NCBI GenBank assembly: GCA_903932505.1
Contig: CAIZGN010000513.1
Location: 1-37,164 of the forward strand
Source: Candidatus Hydrogenedentota bacterium
GTDB taxonomy: Bacteria > Hydrogenedentota > Hydrogenedentia > Hydrogenedentales > CAIZGN01
Reading direction: 5' to 3'
Length of the DNA: 37,164 nt
Positions 2,904 to 23,665 of the stretch are shown in pieces; within the stretch, counting starts at the first letter, position 1; each line of letters begins with the position of its first letter. Both the position numbers and the translations under genes were made by a program. The notes below the pieces were generated by a model that saw only the letters and a list, made by a program, of their open reading frames with translations, had not been told where the DNA came from and ran no database searches.

Positions 2904-3194
2904 TCAGCGCTTCTTGCGTTTTTCCTCTTTCCTCCGGGCCTTCTGACGGCTCAGGTGAAGACGGTACAGCACTTCATTCACCACGGCAGACACCACGCCC
3001 GCCATCACAATGCCCAACAGTATGCCCGCGACGATACGTGCAAAGACCCCGAAAGATCCGTAGGTCAGATGAAAAACCATCCACACGCCCAGCAGCACCA
3101 TGGGCACCGACACCACCAGAAAAAACAGCCACCCCACTCGATCCACATCACGCACTGACTTTATAGACAAAAATGCTCCTCCTCCTCGTAACAT
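2904..3194 (-). CDS. Small two-TM membrane protein, basic C-terminus
   Basis: 96-aa ORF with two hydrophobic segments (WLFFLVVSVPMVLLGVWMVF, IVAGILLGIVMAGVVSAVV) sitting between overlapping/adjacent same-strand genes. Confidence 0.65.
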   Translation of the reverse strand: MLRGGGAFLSIKSVRDVDRVGWLFFLVVSVPMVLLGVWMVFHLTYGSFGVFARIVAGILLGIVMAGVVSAVVNEVLYRLHLSRQKARRKEEKRKKR

Positions 3195-4462
3195 TCCGCA
3201 TTCGGCAGGAATATACGAAACTTGGCCCCGCCACCGGGGTTGTCTTCCACCTGAATAACACCGCCATGTTCATCCACGATCTTGCGGCTCACCGCAAGGC
3301 CCAAACCGGTGCCTCGGGAACCCTTGGTCGAAAAAAACGGCTCGAATATACGCTCTTTGTCTGCGGCGGCGACCCCGGGCCCATTGTCGCAGACCCATAT
3401 CTCCACGCCGCCGTGCGCGGCGGGCAGCACAGAAACCCGGATGTGTCCCTCACTTTCAGGCACCACTTCCGCCGCATTGATCAGTAGATTCACCAGCACC
3501 CGGTACATTCCCTGACTGTCCACCAGAATGGGGTGATCCATGCGTGCGGTGTCCAGCTCCAATTGCAGGTTTCGCTGCGCAAAAAGTTCAGAGAACGTCT
3601 CATGCGCCTCGGTCAGCAAGGCGGAAGCCTCAATGCGCTCAAGAACCGGCTTGCGCGGCTTCGCAAACGTCAGCATGTCCTGCACAAAATTGGAGATCCG
3701 GTGGGTGCTCCGCTTGAACACAGGCCAGCAACGCCGCAGCACATCAATCTTATCCGTGGCGATCCCCAGGTCAATCAAGTCCGCGCTGCTCTGCAGCCCG
3801 GTTACGATATTCTTCGTGTGATGCGAAAGACTGGTCAGCGCCTGGCCCACCGCCGCCAACTGGGCGTTGCGAATCTGATCGTCGATCAACCGCGCATTGA
3901 CAATGGAAGTCGCCGCCAGCGCGGAAAACATCTGCAGCACCCGCATGTCGACCTTCGTAAAGGAGCCGCCACCGGCCTTGTTCACCACCTCAAGCACCCC
4001 GATGAGCGCATTGTGTTCGACCATGGGCACCGCCAGCAGATTGCGTGTCTGAAACTGGGTCGCATCATCAGCACCCCGGAAAAACCGGGGATCATCCTGC
4101 GCGTTGTCCACCAGAATCGACCGACGAGTTTGCGCCGTCGACCCCGCCACCCCTTGACCGATCTTCAACCGAATCTCGCGCTTCAGCTTTTCCTGACTGC
4201 CCGATTCGCCCAGCGCCACATGGAAAAACAACTCATCCGTCGAAGGATCATACAGCATGAGCGAAGAGGCCTCCGCATCCACCACCTTCTTGCTCTCCTC
4301 GGTGATCCGCTCCAGCAAAACATCCAGATCAGTCATTGCCGCGATCAACTGGTGCACATGGTACAGAGCCTCGATTATCCGCCACATTTCCTCACGGCTG
4401 GCCGATGCAAACTTGTGCAGGGGTTGCTCAGGAACTCTGTCACTTGAATCAGTTGATGTCAT
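3161..4462 (-). CDS. GAF-domain sensor histidine kinase
   Basis: GAF region (LLERITEESKKVVDAEASSLMLYD...), H-box SLSHHTKNI, N-box NLLINAAE, G boxes DNGPGV/GSRGTGLGLAVS. ATG at 4462 overlaps the upstream gene stop (ATGA). Confidence 0.92.
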   Translation of the reverse strand: MTSTDSSDRVPEQPLHKFASASREEMWRIIEALYHVHQLIAAMTDLDVLLERITEESKKVVDAEASSLMLYDPSTDELFFHVALGESGSQEKLKREIRLKIGQGVAGSTAQTRRSILVDNAQDDPRFFRGADDATQFQTRNLLAVPMVEHNALIGVLEVVNKAGGGSFTKVDMRVLQMFSALAATSIVNARLIDDQIRNAQLAAVGQALTSLSHHTKNIVTGLQSSADLIDLGIATDKIDVLRRCWPVFKRSTHRISNFVQDMLTFAKPRKPVLERIEASALLTEAHETFSELFAQRNLQLELDTARMDHPILVDSQGMYRVLVNLLINAAEVVPESEGHIRVSVLPAAHGGVEIWVCDNGPGVAAADKERIFEPFFSTKGSRGTGLGLAVSRKIVDEHGGVIQVEDNPGGGAKFRIFLPNAECYEEEEHFCL

Positions 4463-5439
4463 CGCACCCTCTCTCTTGCCAAGACGTCCAGTTGTGCCTC
4501 CAACGGCACGAGTGAATAATAAAGGACATCGGCTATGGCCTGCAAACTCTCCGGGCACACGCGATCTGCCGTGTCCTGCGCACTGTGCCACAATTCCCGA
4601 TGCTGAACCACGGTGCCGCCAAAGGGATAATCCACCAGATCAAGGCAGGGCATTCCACAGGCGCGAAACGAGGGTTCCACGGCGGCGGCGGCCGGGCCCG
4701 CCTCCGAAAAGTGCCGGTCATAGACCAAATCCCGCGCCATGCCCCACACGCAATCCCGCAGCCAGCTTGGTGCCAACGGGTCCGAGGCCACGCTCAGAAA
4801 GCAATCCCCAATCTCTGCAACATTGATTACCGCCTCCACCTGGCCCAATTCCCCACTCGCACGCAAGAGTTCCACGAACTCTCGCCCCTTCCCCGGCGTC
4901 TGCGTCCCGTCATACCACACAAGCCACAGGCTGCGACCGCTGCGATGGCTTCCCAACATCCGCGCCATTTCCAGCAACCACGCCGTCCCTGCACCCGCCG
5001 CATTCGCCCCGAGAATCGGTTTTCCATCGACCACCGGTGTGTCCAGCGGTGTCCCCACCAGAATCACCCCCGGCAACGTGCCCCGTACCCGCACCATCAG
5101 GCTTGCACACGCCACCTTGCCACTTGGGGCAGCCGTCTCAAAAGGATATTCGCTCAGGGCAAATCCTGCACGCTGTGCCTCCTTGCGAAGATATCCGCGC
5201 GCAATCTCCACCCCGGGACTGCCCGCAGGACGCGGTCCTGCCCCCGACAGAATGGATTCCAAATCCTTTGCCGCCCGTTCCCGATTGAAGGGTGAACGCT
5301 GAATGTCGACTTGAACCCGCTGCCGAAGGTCAGGCTTCAATTGCTTCTGCAACAGCTGCGCAGAAAAGAAAAGGAGCAAAAAGACGAATGCGCCCAGAAA
5401 AACGATCACTTTGACGGCATAATGTTCTTGACGTTCCAT
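4459..5439 (-). CDS. M28/glutaminyl-peptide cyclotransferase-like protein, membrane-anchored; metal site apparently degenerate
   Basis: N-terminal TM segment, then GPRPAGSPGVEIARGYLRKEAQRAGF, ILVGTPLDT, ILGANAAGAGTAWLLEMARML, LWLVWYDG, ELWHSAQDT aligning to the M28/QC fold. Start ATG at 5439; the longer listed ORF to 5925 lies antisense to the next gene. Confidence 0.78.
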   Translation of the reverse strand: MERQEHYAVKVIVFLGAFVFLLLFFSAQLLQKQLKPDLRQRVQVDIQRSPFNRERAAKDLESILSGAGPRPAGSPGVEIARGYLRKEAQRAGFALSEYPFETAAPSGKVACASLMVRVRGTLPGVILVGTPLDTPVVDGKPILGANAAGAGTAWLLEMARMLGSHRSGRSLWLVWYDGTQTPGKGREFVELLRASGELGQVEAVINVAEIGDCFLSVASDPLAPSWLRDCVWGMARDLVYDRHFSEAGPAAAAVEPSFRACGMPCLDLVDYPFGGTVVQHRELWHSAQDTADRVCPESLQAIADVLYYSLVPLEAQLDVLARERVR

Positions 5440-5544
5440 ATCAGGGTTCCCGACTACTGCGATTCCACAACAACGATGAATTAATCTCAATGATAACGCA
5501 TCTATGGGGTCATTGTGCCTTGATGCTCTGCGCAAACGCAAAGC

Positions 5545-5574
5545 TTGGCCTGAAGCCCTCCGCAATGGTATAAT
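5545..5574 (+). promoter_or_regulatory. Candidate sigma70 promoter for the receiver-kinase at 5675 (TTGGCC-N18-TATAAT)
   Basis: ttggcc 5545-5550, 18-bp spacer, tataat 5569-5574 in the divergent intergenic region. Confidence 0.5.
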
Positions 5575-5674
5575 TTCGGCACGAGTGAGGGTATTGCCTC
5601 CGATCCGAGAGCGTCCCACATTCGAACTTTCTAAGGGAGGCTGCTCCTTCCTCGACCGATAGAAGTGATTGCAC

Positions 5675-7267
5675 ATGCCATCAGACAAGCCGATAATCCT
5701 GTTGGTGGAGGACGAACCCGCACACGCCGAGGCCGTTCGAAGAACTGTTGTCGACGTCTGGCCCGCAGCCGAAGTGCATGTCGCCGCCACCTTGGGTGAA
5801 TTCCACCAAATGGCTGAATCCACCCACCCCGACATCGCCATCATGGATCTCAACCTGCCCGACGGCAAGGCCATTGACGCTCTCTCGCCGCCGTCGGGGG
5901 AGCATCCATTTCCCGTCGTCGTCATGACCAGCTATGGCAGTGAGCGGGTCGCAGTTGAAGCCATGAAGGCCGGGGCTATGGACTATGCCGTGAAGTCCTC
6001 CGAAGCCATTGCCGGGCTTCCGCTCACCATCGAGAGAACCCTGCGAGAATGGGAACTGCGCGTCTCCCACAAGAAGGCCGAAGAGGATCGCCGAGAACTC
6101 GAGGCCCAAATGCAGCGCGTACAAAAGCTCGAGAGTCTCGGGATACTCGCCGGGGGCATCGCCCACGACTTCAACAACATCCTCATGTCCATACTCGGAA
6201 ACGCCGAACTGGCCCTGCTCGATCTCCCCGCCGATTCCCCGGCGCGACCCTGCATTGAGGACATCGGTGTCGCCGGGCGTCGTGCCGCCGGACTCACCCA
6301 GCAAATGCTCGCCTACTCAGGCAAAGGACGATTCGAAATAGAACCCCTCGACCTCAACGAAATCGTGCGGGAAATCGTCCACCTACTGGAATCATCCGTC
6401 CCCAAGCGGGTATCCCTGCGACTCCCGCTCAACACCGGACTCCCCCTCACAAGAGCCGATGCCGCACAACTGCAGCAAGTGATCCTCAATCTCGTCTCCA
6501 ACGCCGCCGAATCCTTTGCGGATCATCAAAACGGCGAAATCACCGTCTCTACACAGGCCCGATTTTACACCGAGGAGGAACTCCAGGCGAGCCAGCTTCC
6601 GGAACTCCTTCCGCAGGGAAAATACGTCGCACTGCGAGTCTCAGACACCGGTTCCGGCATGACTAAAGAAGTCCTCGACCAGCTTTTCGATCCCTTCTTC
6701 ACCACCAAATTCCCCGGGCGCGGCCTGGGCATGTCCGCCGTACTCGGAATCGTCCGAGGACACAAAGGCGCTATCCTCGTCGACAGTGTTCCGGAGCAGG
6801 GAACCACGGTTCAGGTGCTTTTCCCCGCACTCGAACCCTCACTTTCCCCCACCTGCACCATCCCCCTCACCGGCAATACGGCCCCGGCAGCAAAAACTGG
6901 TCTCATTCTCTTTGTCGATGATGAAGAACCCGTGCAGGACATTGGCAGGCGCGCGCTCACGCGCTTGGGCTATGAAGTCATCACCGCTTCCGATGGTGTC
7001 GAAGCGCTGGAGCACTTCAAGGAGCGCGGCAAGGACATCCTCTGCACCATTCTGGATCTCAGCATGCCCCGCATGGATGGCGAGCAGACCCTCCATGAGC
7101 TGCGTCGGCTGCAGAAAGACTGCCGGGTCATACTGTCCAGCGGATTTGCTGTGCAGGAACTGGCGAGCCGTTTCACCGGTGAAACCGTCGACGCCTTCAT
7201 CGAAAAGCCCTACAGCATATCCACGCTGCAGCAAAAACTGAATCAGGTCTTGGGCAAAATTGACTAG
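5675..7267 (+). CDS. Hybrid signalling protein: receiver - histidine kinase - receiver
   Basis: ILLVEDEPAH...IAIMDLNLPDG; GGIAHDFNNILMSILGNAEL; NLVSNAAES; DTGSGM; LFVDDEEPVQD...ILDLSMPRMDG...IEKPYS. Confidence 0.93.
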   Translation: MPSDKPIILLVEDEPAHAEAVRRTVVDVWPAAEVHVAATLGEFHQMAESTHPDIAIMDLNLPDGKAIDALSPPSGEHPFPVVVMTSYGSERVAVEAMKAGAMDYAVKSSEAIAGLPLTIERTLREWELRVSHKKAEEDRRELEAQMQRVQKLESLGILAGGIAHDFNNILMSILGNAELALLDLPADSPARPCIEDIGVAGRRAAGLTQQMLAYSGKGRFEIEPLDLNEIVREIVHLLESSVPKRVSLRLPLNTGLPLTRADAAQLQQVILNLVSNAAESFADHQNGEITVSTQARFYTEEELQASQLPELLPQGKYVALRVSDTGSGMTKEVLDQLFDPFFTTKFPGRGLGMSAVLGIVRGHKGAILVDSVPEQGTTVQVLFPALEPSLSPTCTIPLTGNTAPAAKTGLILFVDDEEPVQDIGRRALTRLGYEVITASDGVEALEHFKERGKDILCTILDLSMPRMDGEQTLHELRRLQKDCRVILSSGFAVQELASRFTGETVDAFIEKPYSISTLQQKLNQVLGKID

Positions 7268-8856
7268 ACCAGACACCCGGCGGAATTCGATGGCGCATCG
7301 GCGACGTCCCCAATCTCGGCTCCGGAAAGATTCTTGGTTCCTATGCCCCGCTGTTTGGATGGTGTGTACCGGGGCAAATACACATCCACCCGGGTACCTT
7401 CACCCAGCACACTCTCAACCAGCACATACCCCCCATGCTGCCGAACTATCCCGTATACCGTCGAAAGCCCCAGACCCGTACCTCGGTCTTTTCCCTTGGT
7501 GCTGAAGAACGGCTCGAATATCCGGGACAGCGTGAGCGGACTCATCCCCATCCCGGTGTCCGATACCGAAATAACGACGTACTCACCCGGCAGCGCATCT
7601 GGGTGCAAGCGAACCGCTGCCTCATCAATCTTTCGGTTCTGCGTTTCGACCACAATACGACCCCCGTCCTCGACCGCATCCCGCGCATTCACCAGCAGGT
7701 TGCTCAGCACCTGATCCAACTGCGATGAATCCACCTGTACAGCCCATAGCCCGTCTTGGGGGCGCCAATCCATCGGTATCGTCCCCCCGCCCACATGCTC
7801 AAACATCCGCACAAGCGTCTCCGTGGCCGTGTTGACGTCCACCACCTGCGGCGACACCGGTTGCCGACGCGCAAAGGCAAGCAGCTGCCGAACCAGTCCC
7901 GCCGAACGCTGCGTGGCGGACACAATCTCCTCCACATACGGCCGCATGGAATCGACACTCGCAGAGTGACTCAACGCCAAATCGGCATACCCCATGATCA
8001 CGGTCAGCATGTTGTTGAAATCATGCGCCATGCCGCCCGCCAATTGCCCGAAAGACTCCATTTTCTGGGACTGCAGCAGCTGTAGTTCAAGCAGCTTGCG
8101 CTCTGTCACATCCTGCACCGTCCCCACCGCGCCCGAAAGCCGTTCGTCCGCATCGAAAACCGGCTCCGCGCAAATCTGTATCCAGCGGAACCCCGCGCCG
8201 GACTCCAGACGCTGTTCAGCGCGATACGTCCCGGCAGAAATAGCCCGGCACCACTCGGACTCGGGAATCATATGGTCGCCCGGATATGAGGCGAGAAAAA
8301 AGCCCTCGTAGCAAATCCACGTCTCGGCGGAGACACCCAGAATGGCGGCCGCGCTCGCAGAAAAAATCGATTGCCGGGATACCGCATCATAACGCCAGTG
8401 GCCCATATGCGCGATATCCTGGGCCCGCCGCAAATTTTCTTCGCTCCGCTCCAGCGCGTCTTGGGCCTGCTGATGCTCCACCCGCAACTGCCATTCGCGA
8501 AGGATGCGCTCAGCCGTGTGCACAATGTCCCGAAAGGCCTCCGCCGATTTAAGGATGTAGTCCACCGCGCCACTTTTCATGATTTCCACTGCGATTCTTT
8601 CATCCCCGTGACTAGTCATTACCGCAATGGGAAAAGAGCTGCAATTCGGGGGAGGAACAAGGGCTTCAAGGGCCAGACCGTCGGGAAGATTAAGATCCAT
8701 CAATGCGAGATCCGGAGGACGCGCTACGGACGCCTGCCGGTATTCGGCCAGGGTGCCCACCGACTCCACCAGCCAGTGCGGGGCACTGCCACGAAAGGCG
8801 CGGGTAATCACCTCCACATGGGCAATCTCATCTTCTACCAATAACAATCGAGCCAT
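7264..8856 (-). CDS. Receiver - PAS - histidine kinase
   Basis: MARLLLVEDEIAHVEV...LALMDLNLPDG; PAS region with VQDVTERK; GGMAHDFNNMLTVIMGYADLAL; NLLVNARDAV; DTGMGM; KDRGTGLGLSTVYGIV. Start at 8856 chosen; the ORF extension to 9108 overlaps the neighbouring gene. Confidence 0.92.
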   Translation of the reverse strand: MARLLLVEDEIAHVEVITRAFRGSAPHWLVESVGTLAEYRQASVARPPDLALMDLNLPDGLALEALVPPPNCSSFPIAVMTSHGDERIAVEIMKSGAVDYILKSAEAFRDIVHTAERILREWQLRVEHQQAQDALERSEENLRRAQDIAHMGHWRYDAVSRQSIFSASAAAILGVSAETWICYEGFFLASYPGDHMIPESEWCRAISAGTYRAEQRLESGAGFRWIQICAEPVFDADERLSGAVGTVQDVTERKLLELQLLQSQKMESFGQLAGGMAHDFNNMLTVIMGYADLALSHSASVDSMRPYVEEIVSATQRSAGLVRQLLAFARRQPVSPQVVDVNTATETLVRMFEHVGGGTIPMDWRPQDGLWAVQVDSSQLDQVLSNLLVNARDAVEDGGRIVVETQNRKIDEAAVRLHPDALPGEYVVISVSDTGMGMSPLTLSRIFEPFFSTKGKDRGTGLGLSTVYGIVRQHGGYVLVESVLGEGTRVDVYLPRYTPSKQRGIGTKNLSGAEIGDVADAPSNSAGCLV

Positions 8857-8899
8857 CAGCCCTCCCAAGCCAGCTGGTACACCAGCAATTAAAGAAAAC

Positions 8900-9403
8900 T
8901 CAAGACTCCGCGCCATCCTTACGGGCGTCCGACTCTTGCTTCTCGATCGCCCGTTCCAGCACCACCGCAAGCACCTTGGCTGAAACTGGCTTGATGATAA
9001 GGTCGCCCGAGAAGGTTTCGATGGTGCGCGCACAGGCCACCGTCTCGTCAAAGGGGGAAGTGAGTAGAAGGGGAATACCGGGGCGCACCCGAAGCACTTC
9101 GCGCGCAAGAGCCTCCCCGTTCAAACCCGGCAAGTCAATACCCGCAATGAGGGATGAAAAGAAATCCGGTCGCGAAAGAAAATCGGCAAGCGCAGCATCC
9201 CCGTCTCCATGCATTATAACGCTGTACCCCAATTCCTCCAGCAAACGACCATTGATCCGGGCTACATCCGGATCCCGCTCCACATACAGCACCCGCTTGC
9301 CCGAAGGCACAGGCATTGCGCCCTCCGGCATGGGTACCAGCGTCGGGTGAATGCCTTCCTCGCCCTCGGGGGCAAAGGGGCTGCTTTTCACTTTATTAGC
9401 CAC
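8900..9403 (-). CDS. Receiver-like domain protein with degenerate phosphorylation site
   Basis: RVLYVERDPDVARINGRLLEELGYSVIMHGDGDAAL...SSLIAGIDLPGLNGEAL...LLLTSPFDE...DLIIKPVSA; receiver pattern but Asp positions altered. GTG start at 9403. Confidence 0.75.
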   Translation of the reverse strand: MANKVKSSPFAPEGEEGIHPTLVPMPEGAMPVPSGKRVLYVERDPDVARINGRLLEELGYSVIMHGDGDAALADFLSRPDFFSSLIAGIDLPGLNGEALAREVLRVRPGIPLLLTSPFDETVACARTIETFSGDLIIKPVSAKVLAVVLERAIEKQESDARKDGAES

Positions 9404-9527: not shown

Positions 9528-11615
9528 CTAAAAATCGGCAAGATCGTTGTCGTCCAAGGGGAGCACCTGTTTGGGATCCACCGTCACCATCCCATGCGAC
9601 CCTTTACGACCCGTCTGGATGGCAGGCACATGGATCGAGTGACTTCCCGGGGAACTGATATGCCCAAGCTGCCGGTGCTGTTGGGGCGCGGCAGCCCGAC
9701 GGTTCATCGGTGCCGAACTCGCCGGAGCGCGCTTCGCGCTCCGATTCGTGTTCACCGCACCGGCACCGCCCACCAGCGCCATCAGTGTGGCCACCATCTC
9801 GTTCAGCTCGCGGGATTGCGCCGACAACTCTTCGCTCGCCGAGGCCGCCTCTTCGGAATTCGCGGCGTTCGCCTGAGTCACCTTGTCCATCTCTGACACG
9901 GCCAGATTCACCTGATCAATGCCCTTGGACTGCTCATTCGTCGCCGTGGCCACTTCAGCCACCAGCGCCGCGACTTTCTGGGCCGACTGGGCGATTTCAT
10001 CCAATATCTGGCCGACCTGCGTCGAGGAGGCCACACCGTTGTCCGCGTTCTTCTGCGCGCCTTCGATAAGCGCCGAGGTGTTCTTCGCGGCTTCAGCACT
10101 GCGCTGCGCTAGATTACGAACCTCTTCGGCCACCACCGCGAAGCCTTTGCCCGCGTCACCGGCACGCGCCGCTTCCACCGCTGCATTCAGCGCCAGCAGA
10201 TTCGTCTGGAACGCGATCTCGTCGATGGTCTTGATGATCTTCGCCGTTTCGTCCGACGACTTCTTAATGTCGTTGATCGCCTGGGCCATCTGCTTCATGG
10301 CTTCACGACCGCGACCGGCGGCCGTTTGCGCGTCGTTCGCCATTCCGTTGGCCTGCTGCGCGTTGTCCGCATTCTGACGCGTCATCGAGGCCATTTCCTC
10401 AAGCGAGGCCGAGGTCTCTTCCAGGCTGGACGCCTGCTCACTCGCACCCTCAGCCATCGACTGGCTCGATTGCGCCACCTGATTCGCAGCCGAGTCCACC
10501 TGTTCCGCGCCGTTCGTCAAACCACCGATAATCCGGTTCAACGGCCCGGTGATACTCCGCGTAATGAAGAGCGCCAGCACGATACCAATCACGGTACCGA
10601 TGCCGAGGCCCACAATCATCGTCCACGAACTGCGCCCCAGCGAGACCACCGCATCGGAGGCACCGGTCGCCGTTTGCTCCATGCCCGTACTCGCCGTGGT
10701 CTCCGCCGCCGCCAGCACCTTCTCGCCCGTCTCTCCACGGCGCTTGCCCAGATCCTCGCGGGCCGTCCAAGCCTTCAAAAAGGCGCCCATGCACCCCTTG
10801 TACTTGTCACCCGCCGCCCGGCACTGTTCGATCAAATCCAAGTCTTCCTGCAACTTGGTGATGGACTTCAACTCGTCCAGCTTCTTGGTGACATCCTCAA
10901 ACTTCTTCTCGGTTTCCGCAAAAAGCTTGGGGTCGCGGTTGGCAATCGCCTGCCAGGTTCCTGTCCGGATCCAGTTTCCGATGTCGACCACGTCGTTAGC
11001 CAAGGCCATTTTCTTCACCCGCTCAAGAATTTTCTCCTCGCCACTAGCCGCAGCCGTCGCGGCTGCATCGGCCGCAGTCGCACCAGCACCGGAAACCGCT
11101 GCTTTCACATCAGCCTCCAGCTTCGTTTTCTGACCCGCCAGAAAGTCCGCGCAGATTTTCATGTATTCGTCCGCAGCGACGATCGAAGCGTCCTTCTGCT
11201 CCTTCAGCACCGCAGTGGTCTTCACCGTCTCCTCAAGCAGTCCCTCATATTCCGTCGCCTGTTTCGTCGCTTCGGCAGCGTTCGTTTTCAGCCACTCGAT
11301 GTTCTCTTTGCCCGCCAGCTCCGTGGCCTTGACCAGATTCTCCTTCACGTTCTTCAGTTCCGTGCGGGCCGCGTCCAGAAACTGCGTTTCCTCGGTAAAC
11401 GCATAGCCCCGTGTCGCATACATCGTTTTCAGCGAAGTGCGCTCCACATCATTCGCCACCATCACCGCAGGCACATTTTTGTCCTGCATGGTCGTCGCGA
11501 TTTTGCTCACACTACTCATGCTCACCACCGCAAGCGCGCCCAAGGCGATCGCGATAAGAATCAGCAACGTGAAGCCCATCCCGATTTTGGCTCCCAACCC
11601 GGTATTCTTAAACAT
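9528..11615 (-). CDS. Methyl-accepting chemotaxis protein
   Basis: N-terminal TM, helical periplasmic domain, second TM ([21 protein letters not shown]), signalling hairpin [50 protein letters not shown]. Confidence 0.96.
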
Positions 11616-11658
11616 GGTCTCTACTCCTTCGTTTCGTTCATGGTTGCCTAATTCGCTC

Positions 11659-12177
11659 TTACTCGCTCGCCGCAGCACTCACCGCGGAAACTTCTTCAGC
11701 TGTCAACGCTTTGTCAACATCCAATAGCATCACGACCTTGTCCCCCAGTTTGCCCATACCAAGAATAAACTCCGTGTCCACGCTCGCACCCAGCGAGGGC
11801 GGCGGTTCAATGTGATCCTCCGGTACGTTCACCACCTCCGACACCTCGTCCACGATGAGGCCCATGGTGATCGGATCCCCGTTGCGCAGCACCTGCACCA
11901 CCACCACACACGTGCGCTCCGTATCCGCAGTCGCCTCCATCCCAAATTTCAGGCGAAGGTCCAGCACCGGGATCACCTTTCCGCGAAGATTGATCACCCC
12001 GCGCGTAAACACCGGTGTCCGTGGAACCCGCGTCACGGGCATGATCCCGATGATTTCCTGCACCTTGAGAATCCCCAAACCATAGGATTCCTCCCGAAGC
12101 TTGAAAGTCAGGTACTTTCCCGCCGCCGAGCTCATGGCCGAGCTGGCCGTTCCAGTGTCAACCGATCCCATTGCCAT
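11659..12177 (-). CDS. cheW: Chemotaxis coupling protein CheW
   Basis: [60 protein letters not shown]. Confidence 0.92.
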
Positions 12178-15609: not shown

Positions 15610-16833
15610 ATGAACCGTTGGACGCATATCCGCCCGGGTTTTGAACGCGCTTGGGGAATTTCCCACCTTGAAATGGTGATCCGCCTCGAAAAGGCCATGC
15701 TCGTTGTGCGGTATGTGCTTTCGATTCTCTTATCGGCTTGGATTGCACTGGGATTTTCTCTCGAACACACGGGCGAAGAGATCTTGGTGATAATCGCGTT
15801 TCTTGCGCACAACGCCTTCTCGCACTATGCGTTTATCATGAAACGCCGACACCTCTTTCTTAATCTAGCCAATTTTGTTTTCTACTTGGGCACAACCTCC
15901 CTCGTAGTGACTCTGGGTTACCCCGCCGTGCCGTCCAGCGCCCTCTACCTTATCTTTGTGGTGGGTTACGCCGCCTACGCCCCGAGCTTCCTCAACGTCT
16001 TCTCCGTGGTTCTCGTTTCGGCCGGAGCGCAAGTTGCTGCGGTCGCCGTCCAATGGATTACCTGGGGCATCATGCCCGACTATCTGCCGCTTTTCTGGCA
16101 CACCATCGCGCTCCTTTGTGGCGGATGGATGATCGCCCAGCTCATGAGTTATTCAGCCAACGTCCGGCGGCAGGCCCGGGAACACGCCCGGAACCTCGCT
16201 TTTTCCGAGGAAACCATCCGCGTAATTCTGGACACGACCCCCGACCCCATCCTCGTCTATGACGAGGCGGGCACTATTTCTGAAATCAATGAACCCGCCT
16301 GCAACTTCCTCGGCATTCCCCGGGAGCAACTTAAAGGTCAGCACTTTGCTGCCTTCCTCAATATCGAAAATCTACTGACACCGCCGGAACAAGAACCCGG
16401 TGCCATTCAGGTCTCCGAGGCCGAAGCCGTGATTCTTACCGACCGGGGTGAAAAAAAGAACATTCAGATGCGCTTGCGCTCATTTTACCGGGCAAACCGC
16501 CGACACCATGTCGCAGTGCTTGCCGAGCAGATACCGGAACCGTCACAATTCCCCGCCACCGCCCCGGGCGCGCCCGAAGAGGAGCAGCAAGACCAAGCCC
16601 TAGAATACCGGCAGGCCTATATCGAAACCATTGTGCGGCGCATTCGTTCCCCGCTCTCTTCCGTGTCTGGACTCATCGAACTGCTGCTCGAAGGTACCAG
16701 CGGAGATCTGGTCGATTCACAGCGCCAGGCACTCCAAAGCTGCCGACGCAGCCTGCAACGGATATTCGCTTTGCTCCAGGATCCCCATGGACGCATCCAG
16801 AAGCGGAGACTCCCGCCCGGAAACCCGCGCTAG
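15610..16833 (+). CDS. Multi-TM sensor with PAS domain and HisKA-like segment, no ATPase domain
   Basis: About six TM segments, PAS (VILDTTPDPILVYDEAGTISEINEPACNFLGIPREQLKGQ), HisKA-like YIETIVRRIRSPLSSVSGLIELLLEG; ends without N/G boxes. Confidence 0.82.
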   Translation: MNRWTHIRPGFERAWGISHLEMVIRLEKAMLVVRYVLSILLSAWIALGFSLEHTGEEILVIIAFLAHNAFSHYAFIMKRRHLFLNLANFVFYLGTTSLVVTLGYPAVPSSALYLIFVVGYAAYAPSFLNVFSVVLVSAGAQVAAVAVQWITWGIMPDYLPLFWHTIALLCGGWMIAQLMSYSANVRRQAREHARNLAFSEETIRVILDTTPDPILVYDEAGTISEINEPACNFLGIPREQLKGQHFAAFLNIENLLTPPEQEPGAIQVSEAEAVILTDRGEKKNIQMRLRSFYRANRRHHVAVLAEQIPEPSQFPATAPGAPEEEQQDQALEYRQAYIETIVRRIRSPLSSVSGLIELLLEGTSGDLVDSQRQALQSCRRSLQRIFALLQDPHGRIQKRRLPPGNPR

Positions 16834-16905: not shown

Positions 16906-19900
16906 ATGCATGCCCTTAGCTTCGAAACATTCAAGGTCCACCCCGGAAACGAGGCGGCGTATCAAGCCTGCCTCGATGCTGCGCATCTGCGGCATGGCCC
17001 GGGTTGTCCGCTCATCCTCATGGGGCCCGGCGGCGTGGGTAAGACGCATCTGCTGTGGGCGATTGTCGAGGAGGTTCGGCAGCATGCCGTGGGCGTAGCC
17101 CTCGCCTTCGTCCGCGCAGGCGAATTCCCCGAAAAAGTGCGGCGTTTGGCCAAGCACCCCGCGCCCATCCAGCAGGGTCGCCCATGCCTGCTCTTGGTCG
17201 ACGATACCGAGTCGTTTGACGATTTCCGTGACGAACTCGAAAGGGTTGTCGAACTCTTTTTGCAGCACGGTCACACCGTCATTCTGGCCAGTCAGGTGCC
17301 CGTCGAATCCCTGCCCCGCTTTAGTGCCTGGTTTCACGCCCTCCTCTCCAACGGGCGCACCCTGAGTATGGACCCCGCCGACGCGACGGTGGAAGCAAGC
17401 CCGCGTCCTGCGGTGACCACATCAAAGCCGACCACGCCTTCGAACTGGCCCACCGCCTCTTCCTTGCCAGAAAGCGAGGACGACGTCGAATGGGACGATG
17501 TCCCAAACCTCCCGCTTCCCGGTCTCATGCCCCAACCCGACCCCATCGTCCAGGCGGAGCTTGAGGAGCTTATTGAGGATCGCGAACGACTCTCCAGCGA
17601 GTTGGAGTCCGTCCTTCGCAACATGGAGACCCTGCGCGTATCCTCCGACACGCAGCAAAAACTATCCCAGGATCTCTCCGAACTCCGAGCCCAAGTCGCC
17701 CGGGGAAAAGCCGAGCGCGACGAACTCCGCGATACCATGACAGCGGAACGCGATGCCCTCCGTCAGGCACTCGCCGCTGAAAAAGAGGCGCGCGAACGCG
17801 CCGAGGCCGCCAGTGCCTCCAACCGCCAATCTTTTGAGGCCGAGCGCGCCGAAATCGAGGAACGCGCCGTGCGCGCAGCCACCGAGGCCGCCGAATTGCG
17901 CCGCGAACTCTCCGAGTCTCGCTCAAAACACGGGGTACTCCGCCGCGCCCTTACCGACACCAGCTCCCTCGACGAAGTAAAGCTCCGCTACAGCGAAACC
18001 ATCCGCATGTTGAACGAGCAGCTCGACAACCTGCGTGAAGAACTGCGCAGCACACGCCAGGAACGCACCGTGCTGGAGCACAAAGTCGCGCAAACCGCCG
18101 ACTTGCCCATGGAAGTCGAGCGCCTCCGCCGCGAAGCCGACGGTCTGCGAACCGAACGCGCCAATTTTAAGTCCGTGTTGGACGACACTTCGGTGCTGGA
18201 TCAGTTGAAGGCCCGGCACGAAGAAACGGTAAGCATGCTGCGGGGACAACTCGACTCGCTGCGAATGAAAATGGCCGAAGCGAGGGAAGAACGGGATGCC
18301 GTCGAGCGAACCTACGAGGACCGCATCTCCCAAGCCGCCGAACGCACCAACACCCTGCGCAAGGAACTCGACGACCTGTCTGCCGAGCGCCAGCAGCTCT
18401 ACGAGTCCCTCTCTGATACCCGCGCCTTCGACGAACTCCAGGAATCCCACGCGGAAACGGCCCGCTTTGCCAGTGACCAGATGGACATCCTTCGTGCGGA
18501 AATCCGTCGTCTGCGGGGACAGCACACCGCCCTCGAAAAAGAACTCGCCGATACCCTGGCCCGCGCCCGAAGTGACCGGGAGTCTTCAGAGGCCGACCTC
18601 GCCTCCCTTCAGGCCGTTCGCACGCGCATGGAATCGCAGCTCGCCGACACCTCCGCCCTAGATGAGCTTAAGGTCTGGCACGCCCAGGGTGCCGCAAGAG
18701 CCAGTGAATTGATCGCCGCCGCCAATACGGAGCGAGACCGCGCCTTTGCGGAAAACGAGCGCATGCGCGCTCGCATGGAAGAGAAAACCGCTCAGCTCAC
18801 GCGACTCAAGACCGAGCTGGAGGAAACCCTGAGTGACACGAGCGCACTCGACGCCCTCCGAGAACGACACACCGAAGCGGTCAAAGCCCTCAACACCCAG
18901 CGGGCCGAAAGCGCCGCCATCCGCGACGAGCGGGACACCCTCCGGCAGGAGTGCCAACGTCTCCAGCGGCAAACGGGCGAATTGGATAGCATGAAGGTGC
19001 TGCTGGAGCAGTCCCTGCGCGTCAAGGTCGAGGAGATGGCCCAATTCCAGTCGGAATTGCAAACACTCCGTCGCGAAATCAACGCCAGCAAGGCCGAAGC
19101 GGAAGCCTCGCGCGCCGCCCAGGAAAGACTCCGGGAACGTCTCGCCGAAAAAGCCGCTCTGGAAGGCGCACTCGCCGAGGCCGAAGCGGGCCGGGAAAAA
19201 CTCCTCGAAGCCCACGAAAGCCGAACCCGCGAATGGGAGGCCCTGCGCAAGGAACAGGCCAACTGGGACGAGGAACGCGAGCGACTCGTGGGCCGTCTTG
19301 CACAGGCGGGTGCGCGAACTGCCGAACTGTCGAGCGTGCAGGCCGAACTCGATGCCACCCGCGAGGACCAAACCCGCCTTCAGGAAGAACTGCAGCGCTG
19401 CAACGCAGAAATCGCCGTACTCCAGCGCGAACGCGCACGCACGGAAAAGCGCCAGGCCGAGTTGGAAATTCTCGCCGCCTCCCTGCCCCAAGTGGACGAA
19501 GAACGACGCGCCCTGCGCCGCGAACTGTGGGATCAGGCCGAGCAGCTCACCTTTGTGCAGGCGGAGCTCGCCGCCGTCAAGGACGAGCGCGAGCGACTCC
19601 TCCAGCGCGGGACCTCCATGGAAAAACAGGTCCGTGAACTCGCCGAGGCACGCAGGGACCTTTGGCGCATGGGCGAACGCCTTTCCAGCCTGCAGGAGGA
19701 ACGCCAAACCCTCGAGGCCGGGCTTGCCGATGCCCGCGTTGCCATTGAGGCCGCGCAGGGGCTTCACGCCGCACTGGCCGAAGCCTGCGCCGAGCGGGAC
19801 GAAACCCGACAGCTTGCGTGGAGCAACGCGGAACGTCTGGACATCCTGCGCTCCGACATGCAATCGCTCCTCGCCGAGAAAAGTAGACTTGAGCACCTCT

Positions 19901-21636
19901 TGGGTCTCGCCGAAGAGTGGACTGGCCCCGCCGAAGACATGATCAGCGAGCAGGAGCGGCTCCGCCTTGAAATCCAGCGACTGGCCGGTTCGGTCGAGGC
20001 AGCCTGGCGGAACGCCGAGGAAGCTGAGCGTACCACGGCCCAGGCCAACGCCCTCGAGAACAGCCAGCGCGAAATGGAAAACTTGCGGAACGAAGCGCAG
20101 GCGGACATCCAAGCCCTGCGGGAAACCATAGGCCGACTCTCCGCCGAGCTGGCCGATGTCGAGGCCGAAACCCGAATTGTCGGGGGCGATCAGGGTCGCT
20201 TGCAGGAACTGCTGCAGGCGAATGAAGCCATGCAGAACAAGCTGCGCGAGACCGAGGAAGAACGGAACGCGATACAGGAAGTCCTCGCCCGTCTCCGTGC
20301 CCAAATGGAAGCCGCCCAAGCCGACCGTGATACCGCGCAACAGGAGCATGACCGGCTGCAATCCGCACTGAGGACGCAGCTCGAAATGGAGCAGACCCTC
20401 CGGGACGCCGAGACCGCCCGAAATCACAGTCTGGAAGAAATGACCTGGTTGCGGGATGAACTCAAGTCCTGCGCGGCCGCTGTGGAGGAAAGTCAGGCCA
20501 ACCAAGACCAGATTTCCCGACTGCTTGAGGAAAAATCCGGGGCGGCCCAAGCACTCGAGGCCATGCAGGCCGAGTGCGAGGTTCTCCGGGAACGCGCCAA
20601 GGCCGCCTACGACGAGATCGCCCGTTCACGGGAGGTCATGCAAGCTGCCGTCTTGGAACACGCCCGACTGCAAAACCTCGTGGACGAGAAAAACGCCATC
20701 GAAGAACAGGCCCGCGCCGTTGAAGCGGAGCGCGTCCGTCTGATGGAGGACGCCGCAGAACTCGGTGATCGTCTCGACCGTTTGCGGGCCGAAATCCGGG
20801 CGCATGAAGCGCGTCAGATTAGCCTGCGCGAAGTTCTCGCCGCCAAGGAAGCAACCGAACTTCGACTCGCCGAAGCCTGCGAAGCCCGGGAGAAGACCCG
20901 GCAGGAACGCGACGAACTGCAGGATCAGGCCGCGAAGGCGGAGGCCGAGGAGGCCGCCCTCAAGTCGGGCATCGAACAATTGGACGCCATACTCGCACTC
21001 AAGTCAGATATGGAAGGCGAACTCAACCGCGTGGAGATAGAAAACGACGCCGATCGTCGCCTCCTCCACGAACTCGCAAGCCAAGTGCAGGATCGCCTTG
21101 ATCAGGTGCACGCCGGGCAGGCCGCTTTCGCCTACGCCGGACAGGAAACCCTCTCCGCCCTTGAGCAGCTCGGTGCCAGCCTTCGCGCCCGCGCTGAAGG
21201 CCCTGTCTCCGGGCGAATCCTAGATTTGGAAAAGGAAGTGCTGCAGACCCGCGCCACGCAGGAATCCGCCCGGCAGCAGATCGCTGAATTCCAGCAGCAC
21301 CGGCAAGCGGAACAGCAAGCTTGGGACTCAGAGCGCAAACAACTGTCCGCCCAGGTCGAATCCGCCGAAACCCGAAACCGACAACTGCAGGAAGCCCTCG
21401 CCGCCGCACGCAACCAGCTGCAAGCCGGTGAACACGCCCTGGAAATGGCCCGCGCCCAATTCGGCGCGCGCGCCGCCGAAATGGCGCGGCAGATGGCCCG
21501 TTTGGAAGCCGCCCTGCGCCACGCGCCCCGACCCGCCGGAGACGCCCCGCTCGCCGATGCCCAACCCTCCGGTTCCGCGCATCATCCCATGCAAACGCGA
21601 CTCGCCGACCTCTTCGAGATCGACTTGGATGAATGA
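16906..21636 (+). CDS. DnaA-like P-loop ATPase fused to a very long coiled coil (1576 aa)
   Basis: LSFETFKVHPGNEAAYQACLDAA; Walker A GPGGVGKTHLLWAI; Walker B CLLLVDDTESF; then ~1300 aa of Glu/Arg/Leu/Ala-rich heptad sequence. Confidence 0.88.
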   Translation: MHALSFETFKVHPGNEAAYQACLDAAHLRHGPGCPLILMGPGGVGKTHLLWAIVEEVRQHAVGVALAFVRAGEFPEKVRRLAKHPAPIQQGRPCLLLVDDTESFDDFRDELERVVELFLQHGHTVILASQVPVESLPRFSAWFHALLSNGRTLSMDPADATVEASPRPAVTTSKPTTPSNWPTASSLPESEDDVEWDDVPNLPLPGLMPQPDPIVQAELEELIEDRERLSSELESVLRNMETLRVSSDTQQKLSQDLSELRAQVARGKAERDELRDTMTAERDALRQALAAEKEARERAEAASASNRQSFEAERAEIEERAVRAATEAAELRRELSESRSKHGVLRRALTDTSSLDEVKLRYSETIRMLNEQLDNLREELRSTRQERTVLEHKVAQTADLPMEVERLRREADGLRTERANFKSVLDDTSVLDQLKARHEETVSMLRGQLDSLRMKMAEAREERDAVERTYEDRISQAAERTNTLRKELDDLSAERQQLYESLSDTRAFDELQESHAETARFASDQMDILRAEIRRLRGQHTALEKELADTLARARSDRESSEADLASLQAVRTRMESQLADTSALDELKVWHAQGAARASELIAAANTERDRAFAENERMRARMEEKTAQLTRLKTELEETLSDTSALDALRERHTEAVKALNTQRAESAAIRDERDTLRQECQRLQRQTGELDSMKVLLEQSLRVKVEEMAQFQSELQTLRREINASKAEAEASRAAQERLRERLAEKAALEGALAEAEAGREKLLEAHESRTREWEALRKEQANWDEERERLVGRLAQAGARTAELSSVQAELDATREDQTRLQEELQRCNAEIAVLQRERARTEKRQAELEILAASLPQVDEERRALRRELWDQAEQLTFVQAELAAVKDERERLLQRGTSMEKQVRELAEARRDLWRMGERLSSLQEERQTLEAGLADARVAIEAAQGLHAALAEACAERDETRQLAWSNAERLDILRSDMQSLLAEKSRLEHLLGLAEEWTGPAEDMISEQERLRLEIQRLAGSVEAAWRNAEEAERTTAQANALENSQREMENLRNEAQADIQALRETIGRLSAELADVEAETRIVGGDQGRLQELLQANEAMQNKLRETEEERNAIQEVLARLRAQMEAAQADRDTAQQEHDRLQSALRTQLEMEQTLRDAETARNHSLEEMTWLRDELKSCAAAVEESQANQDQISRLLEEKSGAAQALEAMQAECEVLRERAKAAYDEIARSREVMQAAVLEHARLQNLVDEKNAIEEQARAVEAERVRLMEDAAELGDRLDRLRAEIRAHEARQISLREVLAAKEATELRLAEACEAREKTRQERDELQDQAAKAEAEEAALKSGIEQLDAILALKSDMEGELNRVEIENDADRRLLHELASQVQDRLDQVHAGQAAFAYAGQETLSALEQLGASLRARAEGPVSGRILDLEKEVLQTRATQESARQQIAEFQQHRQAEQQAWDSERKQLSAQVESAETRNRQLQEALAAARNQLQAGEHALEMARAQFGARAAEMARQMARLEAALRHAPRPAGDAPLADAQPSGSAHHPMQTRLADLFEIDLDE
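17950..19017 (+). repeat. Protein-level internal repeat: five copies of L-x-D-T-(S/R)-x-(L/F)-D-x-(L/V) at 17950, 18178, 18409, 18640, 18829
   Basis: Copies LTDTSSLDEV, LDDTSVLDQL, LSDTRAFDEL, LADTSALDEL, LSDTSALDAL spaced 76, 77, 77 and 63 codons. Confidence 0.85.
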
Positions 21637-23665
21637 AAACTCGACACCGCCCTTGAAGCGAGACTGGCAAGTGGGCCTCGCCCTGTTCGCGCTTACGGCC
21701 CTTATCGGCGGAGCCTTCACGGTCTGCTGGGGCACACCAATGTTCTGGCAGATTAAGTACGGCCCCGCAGCCATGCTCGCCCTTGGAAAGGGATACTTCA
21801 ACCCCGATATCAACGCCGTCCCCGCCCTCAAGGATTTCTTCACACTTCACACCGCCGTACTGGACGTCCGCGCCCTGCCCGCCATGATCCCGCCCCTGCC
21901 CGAATTCGACCCCATGCAGTTGCTCTACCTGTATACCCAACTCGCCATTGCCGCCGTCTGGAGCGTCACTGGCGTGTCCTGGCCGGCCCTGTCCATCCTC
22001 TTCGCGCTGCTGTACGGACTCACCGCCCTCGCCGCCTACGGCCTCTTCCGTCTCCTCATGCGGCGCTCCCTCGCCATCGCATTCACACTCGTGTTCTGCA
22101 CCTCCGCGCTCCAATTGGCCTACCTGCAATGGCTGCGTGATTATGGAAAAGTGCCGCTGATCTTCGGGCTGGTATTCCTCCTCGGAATACTCGTCGCCCG
22201 TCCTTGGAAAACACGCCCGCTCCTCGGACTCGCGACGGCCTATGGCGTTATTGCCGGAATCGGTTTGGGTTGCCGTGATGACATGATGGTCATGCTGCCT
22301 CTTTTTCCGGTTGCCCTCCTGTGCTTTGCCCCCGGCCCTTGGAAATCCGTGTACAAACCGAAGCTCGGGGCCATCGCCCTCATGTTTTTCGCCTTTCTGC
22401 TTTCCGCCGCGCCCATCCTCTTTTTTCGCGCCCAAATCGGTGCCTGCACAGGCGACCACGTCTATCTCGGACTCCTGGACCGATGCACAGGCCGCCTCGG
22501 GGTGGGTGGTGCCCCCTACCATTTCGGTGGCCCCTATTCCGACACCCTCATGATTCATGTCACCCAGAACTACGCCCAGCGCGTCCTCGGCTGGGCGCAA
22601 GCCCCCGCATGGTATTCCCTCGACTATGACCGCGCAGGAACCACGCTGCTCAAAGACCTGCTCAACCACTTTCCCGCCGATTTTGCCACCCGCGCCTGTG
22701 CGGCCGTCTGGCGCGTTCTGGACGGATTCCTGCCGACACAACCCAACCCCGCTCCCGGAAAACTGCTCAATCCCTCCTTCGCTGTCTTCTTCCACATCCA
22801 CTACACCCTGCTCAAGGCCCTGGCATGCTTCGGGCGTTATCAGGTACTCGCCGCACTGCTCGTGCTCGCCGCCAGAAATTGGCGACACGGACTTCTGGCC
22901 TTGATGCTCGGCCTTTACCTGCTCGGTCTCTCTGCGGTTCAGTTTAATTTGCGCCACCATGTGCACTGGGCGATTGTCGGGCTGCTTGCAACAGGCTATC
23001 TCTCCGAACAAACCCTCCAGTGGATTGCGCAGGCACGAAATGGACAGTACCTTTCCCCGCGCAACGAATGGCGACAGTGGGCCAAAGGCCCCGTCGCCAT
23101 GGTCATCGTCACCCTGCTTCTCATTCCATCTTCCTTGTGGATACTGCGGGTCTCCCAACAGGGCCGCGTGGAACAGCTCCTCGGTGCCTATGACCAGTTG
23201 CCAGTCCGCCCTCTGCAACCCGCCACAAAGCCCACAGGCAAGGGACTCACGCAACTGTCCATCCCGGCCTTTGCACAGATGGAAACCGTGCCTCCGGATC
23301 GCCAAACCTGGCCTGCCCATACCGCCCTGCTCGCCCTGGATTTTGAGGGCCCACTCGAAGAGACCCCGCTCCGCATTCAATACACCCCCGAAGTCGCCGG
23401 AAGCGACCATCCTGGCACCGACTTGAGCTGGACCGTCAAAACCCCCGCACTCCGTTCCGGTGAACAGATCCGCGCCTACATCCCCGTCTATTACGCATCC
23501 TACTCACGGTTTGATGGCATCGTACTTCCCGAGAATGCGGCCACAAACCTGCGCGCCGTCCAAGGCGTGGACGATGAGTCCGCACTGCCGCCCCTGCTCG
23601 TTTTTGCGATGCTGCGCCCTGACTGGAAAGCGCAACCCCTCTACGTCACAATCACCAGTCCTTGA
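21629..23665 (+). CDS. Polytopic membrane protein, glycosyltransferase-like topology; uncharacterised
   Basis: Many TM segments; ATG at 21629 (MNENSTPPLKRDWQVGLALFALTALIGG) overlaps the preceding stop by 8 nt. Confidence 0.82.
   Translation: MNENSTPPLKRDWQVGLALFALTALIGGAFTVCWGTPMFWQIKYGPAAMLALGKGYFNPDINAVPALKDFFTLHTAVLDVRALPAMIPPLPEFDPMQLLYLYTQLAIAAVWSVTGVSWPALSILFALLYGLTALAAYGLFRLLMRRSLAIAFTLVFCTSALQLAYLQWLRDYGKVPLIFGLVFLLGILVARPWKTRPLLGLATAYGVIAGIGLGCRDDMMVMLPLFPVALLCFAPGPWKSVYKPKLGAIALMFFAFLLSAAPILFFRAQIGACTGDHVYLGLLDRCTGRLGVGGAPYHFGGPYSDTLMIHVTQNYAQRVLGWAQAPAWYSLDYDRAGTTLLKDLLNHFPADFATRACAAVWRVLDGFLPTQPNPAPGKLLNPSFAVFFHIHYTLLKALACFGRYQVLAALLVLAARNWRHGLLALMLGLYLLGLSAVQFNLRHHVHWAIVGLLATGYLSEQTLQWIAQARNGQYLSPRNEWRQWAKGPVAMVIVTLLLIPSSLWILRVSQQGRVEQLLGAYDQLPVRPLQPATKPTGKGLTQLSIPAFAQMETVPPDRQTWPAHTALLALDFEGPLEETPLRIQYTPEVAGSDHPGTDLSWTVKTPALRSGEQIRAYIPVYYASYSRFDGIVLPENAATNLRAVQGVDDESALPPLLVFAMLRPDWKAQPLYVTITSP

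Follow-up and report, generated by a model that had tools for sequence, protein, structure and literature searches.

What is a protein that joins an ATPase domain of the DnaA type to a coiled coil of some 1300 residues, and what could it do for the cell that makes it? The question is raised by one open reading frame in the window (the whole 37,164-nucleotide stretch of Hydrogenedentota DNA that was analysed), which begins with ATG and, when the window is translated, contains zero internal stops (Table 1). The product of this gene is a member of an undescribed Hydrogenedentota protein family of DnaA paralogues, and in the reading that we favour, with a probability that we place at roughly 35%, its members would bind nucleotide and act as a tether or cap for DnaA at the replisome.

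Table 1. Features of the DnaA-coil gene, its product and the adjoining genes (positions in the window).
Feature	Position	Strand	Basis or remark
Upstream membrane-PAS-HisKA protein without an ATPase domain	15610..16833	+	72 nt before the ORF
Complete ORF (1576 aa), encoding in order a DnaA-type AAA+ base, a linker, a long coiled coil and a short tail	16906..21636	+	
AAA+ base resembling DnaA domain IIIa (residues 1-165), a lid-less P-loop fold with five strands	16906..17400	+	Pfam Bac_DnaA, AlphaFold, Foldseek
Walker A GPGGVGKT, residues 40-47	17023..17046	+	All 61 homologues have G45, K46 and H48
Walker B LLLVDD, residues 95-100	17188..17205	+	D99 invariant in 61 homologues
Sensor I position, ASQ, residues 128-130	17287..17295	+	Asp of DnaA not kept across the family
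Leu146, at the site of the DnaA/Hda arginine finger	17341..17343	+	Leu in 33/61 and Arg in 6/61 homologues
Disordered linker, about residues 169-210 (~45 aa)	17410..17535	+	pLDDT <50
Coiled coil, about residues 213-1535	17542..21510	+	3.5-residue periodicity against shuffles; modelled helix from 213
About three ungapped ~76-aa repeats within the coil, residues ~339-560	17920..18585	+	Self-comparison
C-terminal tail; final QTRLADLFEIDLDE at 21592-21633 is the degenerate counterpart of relatives' QxxLF[DEG]	21511..21633	+	
Membrane protein encoded downstream (678 aa, without a Pfam family), in the usual place of the HD_3 gene	21629..23665	+	Likely ATG overlaps the stop of the coil gene by 8 nt

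Domain organization

A first-pass annotation had recognised the layout of DnaA/Hda domain III at the N-terminus, and this assignment is borne out by both sequence and structure comparisons. Residues 5-150 match Pfam Bac_DnaA (PF00308; 46.4 bits, cut-off 23, E 6.4e-12), the head is matched by the NCBIfam DnaA model (E 1.6e-13) and by the NCBIfam Hda model (E 5.6e-7, 29.3 bits against an equivalog cut-off of 194.8), and T. maritima DnaA (2z4r) is recovered in a PDB sequence search (E 1.3e-6). In an AlphaFold model made with 29 homologues, the head forms a P-loop domain of five strands, most of it at pLDDT values above 90, and its AAA+ fold ends at about residue 165. When this model was compared with the PDB by Foldseek, ranks 1-11 were DnaA domain III structures and ranks 12-14 were Hda, so the head belongs with DnaA-type AAA+ proteins and not with SMC or another ATPase family.

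Comparison of 61 homologues with four proteins of the DnaA type encoded in the window's assembly defines which parts of the DnaA active site the family has kept. The nucleotide-contact residues F6, F9, N15, Walker A and D99 are near-invariant among the 61 aligned homologues, and at the position of the second Walker B acid 26 of them have Q, 14 have E, 9 have D and the rest have other residues; neither the head model nor the alignment contains a lid or sensor II. The retention of the P-loop and D99, together with the loss of the lid, the arginine finger, the sensor I Asp and the second Walker B acid, suggests that the head is likely to bind nucleotide and, from the known AAA+ mechanism, that DnaA-style hydrolysis in trans is unlikely. 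The family illustrates that the ATPase base of DnaA can be re-used without a lid or a DNA-binding domain.

The same annotation had described an uninterrupted coil to the end of the protein, which holds for about 1300 heptad-rich residues; it does not hold for the linker that precedes the coil, in which the model predicts disorder over residues ~169-208, or for the last ~40 residues, which form a tail containing Pro, Ser and Asp. Over residues ~226-1540 the mean heptad power is 6.17, compared with 1.01+-0.19 (maximum 1.53) in 300 shuffles, and the periodicity peaks at 3.45-3.5 residues. Self-comparison of the coil gives scores of 105, 102 and 87 against a shuffle maximum of 63, evidence from which we conclude that one stretch of the coil arose through repetition of ~76-aa units. 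Family members range in total length from 295 to 1576 aa, the window protein being the longest found, and strong heptads occur in nearly all of them. For a short full-length member, AlphaFold predicts separate long helices at moderate confidence and no extra domain.

An ATPase joined to a long coil could also act in defence or organise DNA in the manner of SMC/Rad50, and the coil does score against the SMC (59 bits), ASRP (72 bits), JetC and LmuB models. However, the SMC and ASRP scores are confined to the coil and lie far under the curated cut-offs (567 and 300, respectively), there are no ABC-type N- and C-terminal halves and no hinge, and the phylum-wide vertical distribution of the family (see below) is unlike that of defence genes. 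An SMC, Rad50 or defence identity was rejected on the ground that all such matches are below cut-off and at the level of the coil, making this a highly improbable account of the family; PADLOC and PHROGs searches returned nothing specific. The absence of a second ATPase half, as in SMC/Rad50, agrees with what had been annotated (Pfam, NCBIfam and Foldseek found none), as does that of the DnaA domain IV helix-turn-helix, since the coil succeeds the base and Pfam and NCBIfam give zero domain IV matches. No Pfam or NCBIfam model spans the whole 1576-aa protein, and no account of a DnaA head joined to a coil turned up in the open-access papers searched, in keeping with the earlier view that no named family has this organization; the DnaA-coil protein is a new architecture on a known domain.

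Distribution and descent of the family

Members of the family were defined by a score of ~118 bits or more against an N-domain profile (A1), by the lack of a lid and by a coil after the base, all of which are found in the window protein (219 bits). By profile score, a homologue is present in 59 of 68 Hydrogenedentota genomes, each at 118 bits or above, compared with at most 84 bits for canonical DnaA. A scan of 85,488 species with one peptide pattern, which would miss some members, returned 34 top records plus one lower record that belong to the family, followed by a drop to canonical DnaA; in all of the 14 canonical DnaA records that were checked below this drop, the stop codon lies ~334 aa away from the match. 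The family records are assigned to Hydrogenedentota or carry another phylum name or none (one Rhodothermaeota, one uncultured bacterium) and match members of the phylum, so this single-pattern scan found no family member outside Hydrogenedentota. A phage or plasmid origin was also considered and rejected, as only weak canonical DnaA-like matches were obtained.

In a tree of the N-domain the members group broadly by taxonomic family, suggesting that inheritance has been mostly vertical; the outgroup row DnaA_C261 was disregarded because it derives from the wrong strand, and the ingroup picture is independent of that row. The coil protein is missing from nine Hydrogenedentota genomes, some of them incomplete.

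The assembly that contains the window (contig C513) encodes a diverged second copy of 468 aa on contig C383. Contamination is a disfavoured explanation for the two copies because the MutS gene and the HD gene described below are single-copy in this assembly and the two contigs resemble each other in tetranucleotide make-up (r=0.963); that the copies are real paralogues is the favoured explanation, though not a proven one. Second DnaA-coil paralogues of ~760 aa, distant from the HD gene, also occur in family f2 (G001:C100 and G010:C41; L194, L195); in the tree these two form a pair of their own with good support.

Other genes of the DnaA type occur in the window's assembly. One (G000:C667, L038:5383-7572, + strand) encodes an MshEN domain (PF05157), a long linker and a DnaA AAA+ domain that has a lid and is without domain IV, and the next gene along is PilB/GspE-like and itself has an MshEN-like start. 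MshEN matches in frames of 700-1200 aa on contigs with DnaA matches recur in most genomes of the phylum, and a search for a paper on the MshEN-DnaA protein found none. Two more DnaA genes lie on short contigs (C732 and C369; L041, L039), the first of which has a proteobacterial-looking domain IV and may be contamination.

Gene neighbourhood

The conserved neighbour of the coil gene is a gene for an HD_3/YfbR-like phosphohydrolase (~190 aa), which lies directly downstream on the same strand at 35 of 44 loci. At 34 of these 35 linked loci the gap between the two genes is -8 to +139 nt, with the genes usually overlapping or only a few bases apart, and spacing of this order suggests that they form one transcript. 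The HD gene was detected in 59 of 68 genomes and is single-copy in nearly all, with products 54-79% identical to the copy of the window's assembly, which matches Pfam HD_3 with an E value of 5e-28.

This linkage allows for another reading, in which the head would sense ATP/ADP or dATP and control or position the adjacent enzyme, acting as a regulator of nucleotide metabolism. The adjacency of the two genes across most families of the phylum and the conservation of the single-copy partner are consistent with this idea. However, the 5'-deoxynucleotidase activity of this HD group is predicted from HD_3/YfbR relatives, and several genomes keep the HD gene without the coil protein: most of the nine genomes that lack the latter retain the former, which suggests that the coil protein is dispensable there, and in six genomes without a detected coil family member the HD gene has no DnaA-like neighbour (in a seventh the contig edge ends the neighbourhood). 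In addition, the two genes are apart in families such as f4 and in the window. The persistence of the HD gene alone and this separation indicate that the two do not need each other, and we regard control of the phosphohydrolase as a less likely role than the one favoured here, yet as a serious rival to it.

The window copy has lost its HD neighbour; the C383 paralogue has the HD gene 60 nt downstream. The membrane-PAS-HisKA neighbour upstream is not conserved beside the family elsewhere. Several histidine kinases and hybrid kinases are encoded nearby (3161-9108), and an MCP-type chemoreceptor gene overlaps a CheW gene at 9528-12177 (- strand).

C-terminal tails and a possible clamp motif

The disordered tails of relatives raise the issue of contact with the sliding clamp. 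Among the 17 sequences of the window's clade, 8 have a QxxLF motif within their last 120 residues, compared with a mean of 0.43 and a maximum of 4 in 2000 shuffling trials that do not correct for shared ancestry, and further members of the clade have an E-variant; as a sequence count, this shows conservation within variable tails, not binding. The clamp-binding motif is Q-phi-x-[L/M]-[F/L] within a flexible region, with an aliphatic residue preferred at position 2 (PMC11139829). This position is mostly Pro or Gly in the coil proteins, making their motif less favourable. DinB and MutS of the same genomes have C-termini of the clamp-binding type (NQHQLRLFDGE- and EQMYLFGP-, respectively).

The tail of the window protein contains no exact QxxLF, and its degenerate ending suggests that this copy may bind the clamp weakly or not at all. 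QxxLF is also missing from the tails of families f10 (0/15) and f3/f4 (0/29), so a clamp motif was rejected as a trait of the whole family, and clamp binding would not be its ancestral function unless it occurs via another motif. Besides QxxLF, the C-termini of f9/f10/f11 (for example, L043 and L042) have a recurrent short amphipathic LxxxVxxAF/AL and an acidic tail, and those of f3/f4 have DDxDPSI/GDHSI endings; these terminal motifs are candidate docking peptides.

Proposed function

The roles named by the first-pass annotation (filament, scaffold, tether or cell-pole organiser) were guesses, of which a tether is still plausible; the HD linkage and the clamp-motif-like tails of relatives suggest a function in replication more than a cytoskeletal one. 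The best reading of these sequence data is that the family is Hda- or YabA-like in role, that is, a DnaA-derived regulator or tether of replication. The head would bind ATP or ADP and hydrolyse it slowly or not at all, the coil would drive multimerisation, and the DnaA-like head could contact DnaA, or itself, via AAA+-AAA+ surfaces. In the window's clade the tail may dock on the sliding clamp DnaN. Like YabA in Bacillus, the protein would tether or cap DnaA as replication proceeds, and the HD_3/YfbR-like partner gene might provide a link to nucleotide supply. The window copy would represent a long-coil paralogue whose adjacent HD gene was lost and whose tail motif is only degenerate.

A serious rival, which we rate as nearly as likely, is that the protein is a structural scaffold or cell-organising coiled coil that acts outside replication, in which the coil is a spacer or filament-former and the head either switches with nucleotide or mediates self-association. 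The spread in length with heptads maintained, as for a spacer, the internal repeats of the coil and the membrane protein encoded by the overlapping next gene of the window are in line with such a function. Three conserved features would be superfluous for a pure spacer, however: the whole DnaA-type nucleotide site kept in all members, the nucleotide phosphohydrolase encoded next door and the short motifs in the tails.

Little is known about how DnaA is restrained in bacteria that lack Hda, SeqA and YabA. A coil-mounted DnaA paralogue that occurs across a phylum, is reduced to the nucleotide-binding base and has a gene in conserved pairing with that of a nucleotide phosphohydrolase is a concrete and testable candidate for such control.

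Comparison with known systems

The coil family has an ATPase adjoining a long coil in common with SMC, Rad50 and ASRP, but the heads of those proteins are of the ABC type, whereas the AAA+ head of the coil family is a single segment with neither a hinge nor a C-terminal half. With DnaA domain III (PF00308) it shares the AAA+ base fold, the N-terminal FxxFxxxxxNxxA, Walker A and the Walker B Asp; it differs in the absence of the lid and sensor II, the arginine finger, the sensor I Asp and domains I, II and IV, in having a coil instead, and in its shortened initiator-specific helices.

The point shared with YabA, which has no AAA+ domain, is a possible role only, as there is no sequence relation to the coil family. 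YabA of Bacillus is a coiled-coil multimer that connects DnaA and DnaN, and both Hda and YabA are known regulators that link these two proteins (PMC5295017). Hda is, like the coil family, a DnaA-derived AAA+ protein without a DNA-binding domain, and the flexible ends of relatives of the window protein carry a clamp-motif-like peptide as well. Hda contains a lid, an arginine finger that is essential for RIDA, and an N-terminal QL[SP]LPL motif (PMC5295017), whereas the window protein lacks a lid, has Leu at the finger position and begins MHALSFETFKV, without QL[SP]LPL; where the family has a motif it is C-terminal, QxxLF being found solely in relatives' C-terminal tails. The window protein is neither an Hda nor a YabA family member, and the loss of the arginine finger argues against Hda-type stimulation of DnaA-ATP hydrolysis. 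If members of the family are clamp-docked regulators, their lid-less, finger-less heads would cap or tether DnaA rather than stimulate hydrolysis. More speculatively, and with considerable doubt on our part, Hydrogenedentota may possess a coiled-coil regulator that derives from DnaA and docks on the clamp, which would add to Hda and YabA a third means, specific to one lineage, of coupling DnaA activity to the replisome.
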